A program made the position numbers and the translations under genes. Below, piece after piece: positions 35,156 to 41,100 of a stretch of DNA of 64,000 bases (position 1 is its first letter; each line of letters begins with the position of its first letter). The DNA lies in contig OV121095.1 of assembly GCA_921293015.1 (NCBI GenBank), positions 35,499,484-35,563,483 on the forward strand, in the 5' to 3' direction. The notes under the pieces are model-generated. The model made no database searches, was not told the origin of the DNA, and saw only the letters and a program-made list of their open reading frames with translations. This stretch comes from Phorcus lineatus (lineage: Eukaryota > Mollusca > Gastropoda > Trochida > Trochidae).

Positions 35156-38100
35156 CTGTAACAGAGAAAAAAGAATAAAGATAGAATAAAAAGTTACAAT
35201 ACCCTCCCCTTGACCCTGGTTATTTGAAGCTACCCCAACTCACAATTACCTAACTCTGCCCCAGTACCCACCTCCTCCTTCAATTTGTTAACTAGATAGT
35301 CTACTTGGTCCATAAGAGTCTCCAGTTTAAACATGTTATGAGTACCGCGCACAAATATAACCCATCCCCCAACTAACGTTTACCTAACTCTGCCCCAGTA
35401 CCCACCTCCTCCTTCAATTTGTTAACTAGATAGTCTACTTGGTCCATAAGAGTCTCCAGGTTAAACATGTTATGAGTACCGAGCACAAATATAACCCATC
35501 CCCCAACTAACGTTTACCTAACTCTGCCCCAGTACCCCCCTCCACTTGGTCCATCAGAGTCGCTAATTTCAACATGTTTTGAGTACCGCACAAAAATTAC
35601 CCTTCCCCCAACTATCGTTTACCTAACTCTTCCCTAGTACCCACCTCCTCCTTCATTTTGTTGACGAGGTAGTCCACTTGGTCCATCAGAGTCTCAAGCT
35701 TCTTCTCGTTGCTGTCCTCCTCGTGTTTCAGACTCATCGCCCGGTTCAGCGGGAAGAAGTCGAAGTTGTTTTTTTCCAGCTATGAGGAAAGACAGTTTAA
35801 AATATTGGTAATGCGAAAATGGTTTGAAAATTTTACCTTGCACACGGGTCAAAATGCAGATGTAATCAGACAAATACTTTACGAATAAAAATTCCCTTCT
35901 TTCACTTTTCTACAATATGAGCCAATGTGAGCCGTGGTATACGAGTAATCTTATTTTATAGTTAAATGAATCCTTCTCTGTTGATAACATGCATCACGAT
36001 ATTTCTTCTTATGGTAGTCAAAATAAAGTATGATGCAGAAATCCCCAAATGTAAGCAAAACTACTTTTTAAACAATTATGATAAAAAGTTACACGAGTAA
36101 TAAAACAAACATAAAGGGAAACCAAAAAACATAATAAAGCCAAAAAGATCAGAGCTGAGAGCTGATTAATTTTAATCCATGTAAGTCATATTGTGGAAGA
36201 AAATGTGAATACCAGATTAGCTATATACAGCTCCAAAGCGGAGTAGTCATTGGGTCGTGTCTCGTCCAGGTGTATGAAGAAGAACAGATAGGACCACTGG
36301 TTGTGTTCAACTTTCACATGCTTCTCGAACCCCTGCAGTATTATAGAAACTTATATATATATATATATTGTAATATTCCTTCAAGTCAAACCTTAAAAGG
36401 CGCCGTGAATAATGAAGCACGCACTCTAGAAAGCCATATTTGATAAAATGAAGATGTTCTTTAAAATTTTTTTTTCGTTGCATTTTAAATGTTTAGTAAG
36501 ATACGCATGTTACTCTTTTTTATTATTCAAGAGCGCCACCGTTCTAACAAGCTTCATCGTAACCTCATCGTAAAATGATCTATATTATCAGTCTCATACT
36601 GAACACGTTTGTTCTCCAGGCAGATTTCTTTGAGCATTGGTATCGGATTTCAAAAGCTGCCAATGTTTTACAATTTAAATGTTAAATGAATTTTTTCATG
36701 CTTTCAGTTGCTCACCCCTGGTTGTCTCTCGAAGTCGTAGCTCTCTCTGCTGCAGATGAAGCAGTTGGACTTCATGTCGTTGTCAATTTGCCACTGAAAT
36801 ATATCGTCAGTATATAAGTATTTATCATCTACATTGACCAGAAAAAGTGTTCTGATTCACATCGTTGGAGTATATCTTGAAGAAGTTCAAATTATCAAAT
36901 ATAACAATTGCATGGAAAATTGCAATGCCAAGAACTTACATTGTAACCAACACTAGATTGGCCAAAGTATGAAAGTTAAGAATTCAATTGCCTGATATTG
37001 CATTGAATACCTTGTCAGTAGAAGCAACTCTAACGTTTAAAAGTCTGCTTTCAATTTTTAAAGATCAAACAGGATGCGATTGTCTTAGCAAAATCATTCA
37101 AATACTGTAGTTACACTTAACTCACAGTGTTACAAAAAATACGAATCTATTCTACAATTTAATAAACTAAAACACACGTTCAAAGATCTTAAAGATAGCT
37201 TTCCATGGAAATGTAGGTAACACATCAGATCGGAATCTTCCTAAAATCAGTTTGAACCCAACATTCATACCTCATTGTAAGATACCAGTATCAAGTACAA
37301 TATGATTTAAATGATATTGGTTATGAAAGAACGAATCTCCTAGCTCGAAAACGAAGAGTCGCTGGTACCTTGTTATCTCTAAGCTCAGAGAAGGTGTCGA
37401 CGATGATACCGAAGATGATGTTGAGGCCGATGGTGGTGATGATGATGAAGAAGGTTGTGTCGAACACCGTCACTCCTAGGTGGAAAAGGAATGACTGGCC
37501 TGCAAGCCCGTCCACAAACACCTGTATATTATGGAGAATATCATTAGTAAACCTATGCAAAAAATCTTAGCTGCAATGTTCTTAGTTGTTGATTTTCGTG
37601 GATCCATGAGGATAGGTGATAAACGACCTGTACAATTTGTAAAATAAGATCAAAACTTACAATTGTATATTAACCAGAACGCATACGCGGATCAACCTCT
37701 GCATCTCAATCTATCTAAACGTATTAAAAGCCTAATAATTATCATTATAAACCTTCAGTGACGTCACTCTACTGTTCTTCAGAAACACCTTAAATTTGAA
37801 ATTTCTCTAAAGAAAATCTCGCTTCCTCGCTTCAAGGTAAATATACATAACTATAACTATAACATAACTATACAGAATACAGCTTAATTATAATTAGTTA
37901 GTATTAATTCTAATTAGTAATCTGACCCCACCTCCCCTCTTACGCACTCAGACAGTTTTACGCAGCTGATACTGTAATAACCTCATGCCATGTTTCATTC
38001 TACACTTCAAAGCTCTTTACGGGGAAATCGTCGTTTCTTATTGCCCAATCATAAGATCGTTTTCCTCGTAGAAGGTGCACTTACGTTATACACGCCCTCT

Positions 38101-41100
38101 ATGAGACCATGATGTACCATTGTTGTGAAACATTCGTAGATTGTCCGGCAGTGTTTACCGTCCGCTGCTGTAAGGACGTTTCTGTAGAAGGCGAAGCCAG
38201 CCAACGAGAAGATGTACAGGATTGCGAAACCCAGCAGGGCAACCAATACCAGTGACCAGCCTAGAGAAAATACATATCTTGTTGATAAACAGATATTATC
38301 GATTTTAATTATACGGAATACTGAAGTGGAATACATGAAGAAAGCATTATGCAATGTGATTCATATTAATATTGTCTTTCGTACAACCAATACGCTGTTA
38401 CGTGAGGACAACAACGTATTAAAACATTAAATAATTATTGATGTCAGACATTAACTGTGATACACAAACTAAGTTGAAATTACAACAAGATGCGAAGAAG
38501 GAAGACAATAAATAAATCATCAACAACAGCCTGATATTACCTAAAAGCCTGTACTCAAGCAAAGTTGAGCAAACTCATTTGTTACGAATCGAGCTCACAT
38601 GGGAAAACCTTTATTTCAGAGAGTTTAAAGGGACAGTAATGAGTTTTTTTGATAAATAAAATGATCTCACGAAAACAAACATTAAATCAAAAGAAGTAGT
38701 TTTAAAACAAACACACTATGATCGCTAAACTATGCAAAACTGTTCCAATAACCAAAAATGTTTAAAAGGTGTTCACACAAAAATGGCTGCCAGTGGTTAT
38801 TGCTTGATACTTGATTCTTTCTTCTAAAACTACAGACGATCGGGTGGAGTGATGAGATGTTTTCACAATGATAATTCATTTCTGATGTTTATGTAGGAAA
38901 TTTAAAGAAACAAATCTAACAAATAACGGGCTACTGCCCTTTCCTTTAATATCAAGTAAAATGAGACTCACCATTCCTGGTGACGGCCTGTATGACTCTC
39001 TTCAGCAGCTGGTTTAGCATGGCCATGTGCAGGAGATGCACAGAGAAGAAGTAGCCGTACAGCGCCGTGCCACACACAGAGAACCCGAAAAACACCTGCA
39101 CACATACATATACACATACATTAACTAATAAACCACCCCCTTCCCATGACTTACCGCTTATCGACCTTGTCTGCGCTCAGGTAACGTAAGGAGTGAAGAA
39201 CTGAGTTTTCTAAACCTGCTTCAAAAGGATTACCCGTGCATAGTAGTGATGAAATGTCAAGATAAATGGCATACATTTAACATTGTGAAGGTATGTTATC
39301 GTCAAATATAAGGTCAAAGTTTATCTCCATATGCATCTTGACACGTCGGTAACATAACTAGGGGAAATGATGAATGCATCAAATCGTATTACCATCAGGA
39401 AAATCTTGAATTTGTGTGAACCTTATCTCAGTGAGAGTACTGAATATCACCCCAGGAGACGAACGTTACAGATTTAGTTTATTTTCTTACTACATGTCAT
39501 TTTAATTATGAGTTTAAGTTTAATTGCTATGGTTACAAAGTCTGTCACTGCTTACCAGATAGTAGAAGGTAAGGAATCCAAAGAAGCGGACTTCAAGATG
39601 TCCGCCACTTGTCTCGCGTTCATCATCGTCGTCTTCTTCTGTCTTCACGTGATTCTTTGGGTTCAGACACCTGACATAAAGTATATAAAACTTGTCAAAT
39701 AAGGCTAATGAATTGGAACTTATGAGCAAAAGTATGTGTTATTGAGTTTTTATCCTCATGCGGTTCATGATACATATGGATATAACGAATGCATGAACTT
39801 GATAAGATGAACGATATCTATGGTTGCTTGAAATATACCATTTTCATCTTCTTGGGCACGAATACATAACCAATATCATACTTTACGAAATGAGATCAAC
39901 ATTGGCGTTGTCAATAAAAATAGTAAGTTATTCTTTTTATCAAATTATCTAGTGATCATCATTATATTGAAAACGGATTATTTTCAAGCTGAGCACCATT
40001 AGATAATCATTTGTACTATGCTGTTATCAACGATAAAATATGGTTATAATAATCATTTAATATATGTCATGTTATCATTATGCAGATAGAGAAAACAATT
40101 AAAAGGTGTTACAGGGATGTGCAGATTTTAACTTATATATTCCCTTCCCTAGCCTTCTATACACAGTCGCTAGTCCAATCAAGTTGACTTTAACTTGCAC
40201 TGTAGACTACACATAAACTGATCACCCCCATCAACAAATCGATCATTTTGTCGTATCTTTTGGATATTGAAGAAAACATTAGCTAACGTGATCGTTTAGT
40301 TGTTACATACCAAAAAAGCTTCAACAGAAAAGCTGCATTTTAAATATTTATCGTTGCGCTTGCAACAGTGACATAGCAATAAAATGAGTTATGAAAAGAC
40401 GAAATGGCAGAAATCCTGTTCTAAAATAGCCCAAACAATGTACGTGAAACTGCCCGAGACAGTTTTGATATTTCACCAGCAATCATATACTCAAAGGTGC
40501 TTCATGAGGCTATATAGAAGAAAGTGGATGGCCTTAACAAAACAGTTTAAATCCAGCCCTGAACCAAAATAATATCTGTTCTGAGTAAACTTACTTGAGA
40601 CAGTTTTTGATGTCGCGGATCCCGGGGAAGACAGGGTGGTTAGACAGGAAGTAGCTGATAAGAATCATGAGAGACAGGATGTTGTGGATTCCACCCAGGA
40701 CAAAGGTCATGTAGTAGGCACCCGGCCAGTCCGTCAGCACCGGGACAGCACTGAAATATGTTGAGGATAATATATGAGTGTCCATGATATTATGCTGAAG
40801 TTGCTGAGTAAATGTCATATCGTGATGGCAATATGACCCGGACATGTTTATTTATGTAAAATTAATGAAATACAGTTTCAGTGATATACCTTTCCAAAAT
40901 AATGATAAAAATTCCATTCATGAAAAATGACTTTGCAGGTACATGTAGGTAGACTGAGAGACAGCTATGGCGATTATAACCGTTTTATCCAAATTTGGTT
41001 AAGGAAAAGAATGAAGAGATATTTTCAGACTGAAGTTTATCTACCCTGTTACCTAAACAGATTGTTCTTTCCATGTGGAATGAATTCATTAATAAATACA

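Follow-up and report, generated by a model that had tools for sequence, protein, structure and literature searches.

The window analysed here is a stretch of 64,000 nucleotides of the Phorcus lineatus genome (contig C32:35499484-35563483), and its minus strand carries the final 976 codons, for the C-terminal part, of a gene that appears intact and belongs to the superfamily of inositol trisphosphate receptors (IP3R) and ryanodine receptors (RyR). The pore of this gene, hereafter the window gene, has no GGGxGD selectivity filter. The window gene and two paralogues on contig C16 form a branch that is separate from both IP3R and RyR. We propose, with a probability of roughly one half, that its product is a functional cation channel, gated by a ligand, whose filter has been rebuilt around a single ring of acidic residues. 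The GGG-V/I-GD filter is described as a conserved feature of IP3 and ryanodine receptors in metazoans (PMC3213138), GXRXGGGXGD is given as the motif that characterises the pore in insects and mammals (PMC8301844), and parasite homologues are reported with GGGXGD (PMC3194816).

The gene was modelled with 25 exons running from 63981 down to 35078 (Table 1), with no internal stop before the stop codon and with GT-AG boundaries at all 24 of the 24 modelled introns. The exons were found by reading the minus strand both with a script and by eye; for exons c-e and i-l the main basis is the reading frame together with the splice sites. The model covers the C-terminal part of a superfamily gene and contains RIH_assoc (7.2e-23, 80.8 bits; cut-off 28.5), Ion_trans (3.4e-8) and a C-terminal pore domain with the S6 gate and a C2H2 tail. 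The N-terminal domains are encoded upstream of the window, where exons with Ins145_P3_rec and RIH homology were found at about 35.60-35.62 Mb of C32; when joined, these upstream exons gave Ins145_P3_rec (6.9e-21, 74.8 bits; cut-off 23) and RIH (RYDR_ITPR; 2e-7, 31.2 bits; cut-off 22.3), with MIR at 21.5 and 22.5 bits, under its cut-off of 25.6. In searches of the 177,635 distinct sequences of the PDB, the 976-residue model matched IP3R type 3 with an E-value of 1.1e-63, and a query of 108 residues from exons t and u alone matched it with 4.4e-10, a likeness far beyond chance. All 51 sequences matched by the full model at E ≤ 1e-8 are IP3R or RyR, as are all 51 matches of a profile of the three branch genes at E ≤ 0.01.

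The pore is encoded by exons t and u, which are joined in phase 0. Exon t has the acceptor tattttctctag and the donor gtaagt, exon u the acceptor cataatatacag and the donor gtacca, and the spliced filter reads GLIEGVYN. In a six-frame search of the window for GGGxGD-like patterns, the sole place found was a run of G at about 56540-56570, well away from the pore. The first-pass annotation, made from the letters of the window, had reported these pore residues and exon boundaries as lacking GGGVGD or GGGIGD; re-reading of the minus strand, the splice sites and the phase-0 junction bears this out.

Searches of the whole assembly (957.8 Mb, 74 contigs) located RIH_assoc at five places. The pore protein query gave 17 matches, 16 of them in the same five genes (the RyR gene being matched weakly, with an E-value of 0.015) and one on contig C9 with an E-value of 0.675; as only the best candidates were scored, five is a lower bound for the superfamily genes. 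One of them, on contig C11, is an ordinary IP3R (filter GGGIGD, GLRNGGGIGDVLRKPS) and another, on contig C7, an ordinary RyR (filter GGGIGD, GVRAGGGIGDEIE). The two sister genes of the window gene, C16a and C16b, are about 20 Mb apart on C16, and their filters read GLIGDMFE/EIKQDPAG and GLIGDLFE/VITPHENE, the slash marking an intron. In both, a short x-G-D (GLIGDxFE) follows directly after the pore helix; the window gene reads I-E-G-V-Y-N at this place. None of the three branch genes has the R-x-GGG part of the filter, and the window gene is the most altered.

The three branch genes share a phase-0 intron inside the filter, and exons s-w measure 124, 176, 153, 78 and 120 nt in each of them, counting exon u of C16b as set by eye at 153 nt and leaving the doubtful small exons of the paralogue models out of the counts. 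From TM4 (the fourth transmembrane segment) to the tail, identity is 48-72% among the three, 33-39% between the branch and IP3R or RyR (15 pairs), and 38-41% between IP3R and RyR (6 pairs), so that the branch is about as distant from IP3R and RyR as these are from each other. In a tree of the same region (8 sequences, LG+G4, unrooted, with the branch taken from one species and some rows lacking part of the luminal loop), the split between the branch and IP3R plus RyR received an ultrafast bootstrap of 100 and the C16 pair one of 95. The window gene falls outside the IP3R clade of this 8-sequence unrooted tree, and neither it nor its sisters carry the GxRxGGGxGD filter of IP3R; as to RyR, it has neither the GGGIGD filter nor a place in the RyR clade. 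Its tip branch has a length of 0.55, compared with 0.15 and 0.25 for the sisters. When the contigs of IMG/VR and GTDB were scanned with the alignment of the three paralogues, 237 and 593 pattern matches came up; tblastn upheld none of them as a relative, as expected for a eukaryotic gene. Judged by its sequence, the branch belongs in the IP3R/RyR superfamily as neither IP3R nor RyR. The first-pass annotation had described a paralogue with a non-canonical filter and an intact coding sequence, which stands; it was incomplete in that the gene is not a single deviant IP3R but one of a separate branch of three that all lack GGG. A lone degenerate IP3R, also considered, was dropped because the two sister genes are likewise without GGG.

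Could a piece of the filter have been lost from the model? From the GL after the pore helix to the FF of S6, the distance counted on the alignment is 31 residues for each of the three branch genes and for the snail's own IP3R, and 30 for its own RyR; spacing equal to that of the IP3R gives no sign of a lost piece, and the equal lengths of exons s-w argue against a missed exon. The filter intron lies 18 nt past GL in the branch, 19 nt past GV in the own RyR and 48 nt past GL in the own IP3R, offsets that hint at a nearly ungapped alignment. In the own RyR this intron splits the codons of the filter (GGGI-G-D), near the offset of the branch, and in the own IP3R it is elsewhere. GGG is absent from the branch in every one of the three alignments obtained, and MAFFT pairs the sisters' x-G-D with that of IP3R.

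Conservation differs strongly along the pore. Compared with C16a and C16b, the window gene is identical at 16/27 and 11/27 positions of S5, 1/12 and 2/12 of the turret, 6/14 and 5/14 of the pore helix, and 37/68 and 38/68 of the tail, and S6 reaches 25/31 with each sister. Between the sisters the counts are 17/27 (S5), 7/12 (turret), 12/14 (pore helix), 5/6 (filter), 4/18 (post-filter), 29/31 (S6) and 53/68 (tail). With the sisters alike at 5/6 filter positions and the window gene like each at 1/6, the filter is common to the sisters, the window gene having diverged further. The gate Phe (F2586) and the central-cavity N2583 are kept in all three branch genes and I2590 is replaced by V (pore residues numbered as in rat IP3R1, PMC9663519). 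The first-pass annotation held that the gene is kept intact as coding sequence and suggested a check on the ratio of non-synonymous to synonymous substitution rates (dN/dS). The uninterrupted frame and the GT-AG introns agree with that claim, as do the NG86 values for exons s-w, 0.41/1.51 and 0.45/1.77 (about 0.25-0.27) between the window gene and the sisters and 0.19/1.57 (about 0.12) between the sisters, with dS near saturation throughout.

As for the sensor sites, E2042 of the Ca2+ sensor is kept in all three branch genes, and E1978 is D in the window gene. Among the IP3 contacts of ARM1, K508, R511, R568 and K569 are kept in all three (4/6), with R504 replaced by K and Y567 by S. A genome search with the ARM1 stretch placed 7/7 matches in the three branch genes.

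We propose that the protein would assemble as a tetramer into a ligand-gated cation channel in internal membranes. The ARM3 site, of which part is kept, would probably sense cytosolic Ca2+, and the ARM1 half of the IP3 pocket, most of which is kept, would probably sense an inositol phosphate; opening would take place at the conserved S6 gate. Ions would then pass a filter whose acidic residues form one ring (E in the window gene, D in the paralogues), loosely like the LGD of polycystins. Conduction is favoured because S6 and the filters of both sisters seem to be under constraint for it. Given the rebuilt filter, selectivity and conductance should differ from those of IP3R and RyR. Taken more broadly, the three genes, which lack the usual pore signature, may pass other ions or may be signalling partners without Ca2+ release. 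It is tentatively conceivable, and less probable than the channel itself, that they represent a third animal class of the superfamily, present in three copies and gated by inositol phosphate, with pocket and gate largely kept and a short single-acid-ring filter of a selectivity undescribed in the superfamily.

Several observations weigh against this proposal. The window gene agrees with each sister at no more than 1/6 positions of the filter and, in the stretch after it, at 4/18 (C16a) and 3/18 (C16b), so that the pore of the window gene may be relaxed or lost. The inserted gap in the loop varies with the program (phmmer 2 and MAFFT 5 for the window gene, phmmer 1 for a sister), which makes residue-by-residue claims about the filter soft, and in no alignment does the Asp of GGGVGD have a clear counterpart in the window gene. 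This Asp we take to be, in another numbering, probably D2550 of rat IP3R1. The D2550A mutant of rat IP3R1 is non-conducting (PMC10406432). At the Ca2+ site of the window gene, N1981 is replaced by H and Q2045 by S, and the IP3-contact loop of the beta-trefoil (T267-R269), aligned by eye, differs. A genome-wide, exon-by-exon search for Ins145 gave only exons of the C11 and C7 genes and none of the branch. No polycystin or TRP chain was among the listed PDB hits (51/51 for the profile; the best 60 of 63 at E ≤ 10), the search being of the PDB and not a direct comparison with polycystins, and the polycystin likeness thus stays at the level of a motif; among the best 60 of 63, the weak hits include NALCN and another voltage-type channel (E 0.1-0.95). 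Finally, the single in-phase candidate microexon with GGG in intron t/u, taken up below, had a counterpart in only 2/500 dinucleotide-shuffled introns and is rare by chance.

The main rival, which we regard as unlikely and yet as a serious contender, is that the product would be a natural non-conducting subunit, acting either as an inositol-phosphate-binding scaffold of the endoplasmic reticulum (ER) or as a dampener within ordinary IP3R tetramers. The window gene is least conserved in the very filter where conduction is set, while the ARM1 contacts with IP3 stay. Engineered precedents point the same way: store-operated entry is still sustained by the pore-dead IP3R1 D2550A, provided that IP3 can bind (PMC10406432), and contacts between ER and mitochondria continue to be upheld by pore-dead versions of IP3R1 and IP3R2 (PMC6700175). 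However, the pore-lining helix S6, not obviously needed by a scaffold, is the best conserved of the compared segments, and at 33-36% identity with three IP3Rs, co-assembly of the window gene product with IP3R is doubtful.

An ordinary Ca2+-release channel, in which the changed filter letters would work like GGGVGD, seems improbable to us. The overall architecture is retained, and variant filters are on record in homologues of Paramecium and oomycetes (PMC3213138, PMC7399828), but 0/3 alignments restore GGG and the filter Asp is without a clear match. A decaying copy or an assembly artefact is very improbable: the long tip branch of the window gene, the most diverged of the three, and the duplication of a fragment of exon x in the following intron would fit it, whereas 976 codons without an internal stop, the uniform GT-AG introns, the dN/dS values and the conservation of S6 speak against it. 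Least credible of all is that a cryptic or alternative 12-nt RGGG exon in intron t/u is spliced in and restores part of the GGG filter in some transcripts, since this in-phase candidate, rare among shuffled introns and with scores low yet inside the range of the modelled sites, has an acceptor of -0.1 bits without a pyrimidine tract (24 modelled sites: -1.4 to 11.4, all but one stronger) and a donor of 3.7 bits (modelled sites: 1.8 to 11.2), has no counterpart with even GG in the sister introns (0/9 and 0/29 candidates), would lengthen the loop to 35 residues compared with 30-31 in relatives, and still would not give GGGVGD.

Table 1. Exons and pore elements of the window gene (positions in the window)
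Feature	Position	Strand	Remark
Exon a, upstream of RIH_assoc	63825..63981	-	weak alignment to IP3R3
Exon b	62942..63039	-	
Exon c	62433..62532	-	frame and splice sites
Exon d, less certain	61774..61848	-	frame and splice sites only
Exon e	60743..60988	-	frame and splice sites
Exon f, RIH_assoc (PF08454) with Ca-sensor residues	60012..60305	-	
Exon g	59625..59726	-	102 nt in both paralogue models
Exon h	59397..59492	-	
Exon i, less certain	50528..50596	-	frame and splice sites only
Exon j, 24 nt, uncertain microexon	49567..49590	-	frame and splice sites only
Exon k, 18 nt, uncertain microexon	49131..49148	-	frame and splice sites only
Exon l, 27 nt, uncertain microexon	45938..45964	-	frame and splice sites only
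Exon m	43258..43366	-	
Exon n, pre-TM1 linker (SIEIVKDD...)	42352..42470	-	
Exon o, pre-TM1 linker, 170 nt	41805..41974	-	170 nt in both paralogue models
Exon p, TM1	41110..41202	-	alignment to IP3R3
Exon q, next TM region	40595..40750	-	
Exon r, acidic loop and start of next TM	39556..39670	-	
Exon s, TM before S4-S5 linker, ends VTRNG	38972..39095	-	
Exon t, 176 nt: S5, pore helix, first filter half	38085..38260	-	length equal in both paralogues
Filter codons IEGVYN, opposite R-x-GGG-V/I of IP3R in ungapped alignment	38085..38102	-	
Intron t/u, 563 bp, GT-AG	37522..38084	-	
Cryptic 12-nt exon candidate RGGG in intron t/u, in phase, AG/GT-bounded	37927..37938	-	weak, probably chance
Exon u, 153 nt: S6, ends SELRDNK	37369..37521	-	length equal in both paralogues
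Exon v, CFIC half of C-terminal C2H2 motif	36716..36793	-	
Exon w, HVKVEHNQW half of C2H2 motif	36213..36332	-	
Exon x, with charged tail	35645..35779	-	
Exon y, tail end and stop codon	35078..35155	-	

Repeats lie in several introns of the gene. Between the candidate microexons k and l there is a 55-bp tandem array (46220-48646; 44 copies, 98% match, strong GC skew), adjoined by a 65-bp array at 48660-49074. Intron h/i carries two copies, in opposite orientation, of a GGATCC-rich 88-bp minisatellite (52808-53020 and 58631-58842). The intron before the last exon holds tandem copies of about 134 bp (35233-35648; 2.3 copies, with an overlapping 105-bp array) that include the fragment of exon x together with its donor, possibly a failed or alternative exon duplication. 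Elsewhere in the window, the minus strand has an open frame of 322 amino acids with a Glyco_transf_92 match of 124 bits (10358-11326) and another with a membrane-like start and no Pfam match (22075-22566).

Compared with IP3R (ITPR1-3 and the own C11 gene), the branch shares Ins145, RIH, RIH_assoc, Ion_trans and the C2H2-type tail, with MIR only below the cut-off, as well as the S6 pattern IIFG..DTF..LR and the 4/6 ARM1 contacts. It differs in lacking GxRxGGGxGD, in an identity of 33-38% (TM4 to tail, 9 pairs), in the beta-trefoil IP3 loop and, relative to the own IP3R, in the place of the filter intron. With RyR (the own C7 gene and RyR2) it shares a short turret between S5 and the pore (17 residues in RyR2 and 59 in IP3R3, by chain numbers), an S6 ending in ELRD and, with the own RyR, a filter intron offset within one nucleotide; different from RyR, the branch has no GGGIGD and keeps IP3-contact residues, at an identity of 34-39% (6 pairs). 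Capsaspora IP3R-B, which Alzayady et al. in 2015 are said to have described as an IP3R paralogue unresponsive to IP3, could be a relative of the branch. The CRC channels of Paramecium (group VI and others), which are ciliate proteins, are described as superfamily members with deviant filters (PMC3213138). PKD2 and the oomycete PKDRR have, like the two sister genes, a short x-G-D after the pore helix (LGD in PKD2, PMC7399828), within a domain architecture unlike that of the branch. A scallop RyR-like protein (PMC13362341), which is 5191 residues long and contains SPRY and RyR domains, was set aside as a RyR and not a member of this branch, and among the papers listed from the literature searched, which has few subscription journals, none describing the branch was recognised. 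An animal branch without the GGG filter is a natural experiment on the role of that filter. It would reveal either giant receptors that conduct with another filter or IP3-binding receptors with a changed pore, kept for roles other than Ca2+ release, roles for which the evidence so far comes from engineered pore-dead mutants (PMC10406432, PMC6700175).

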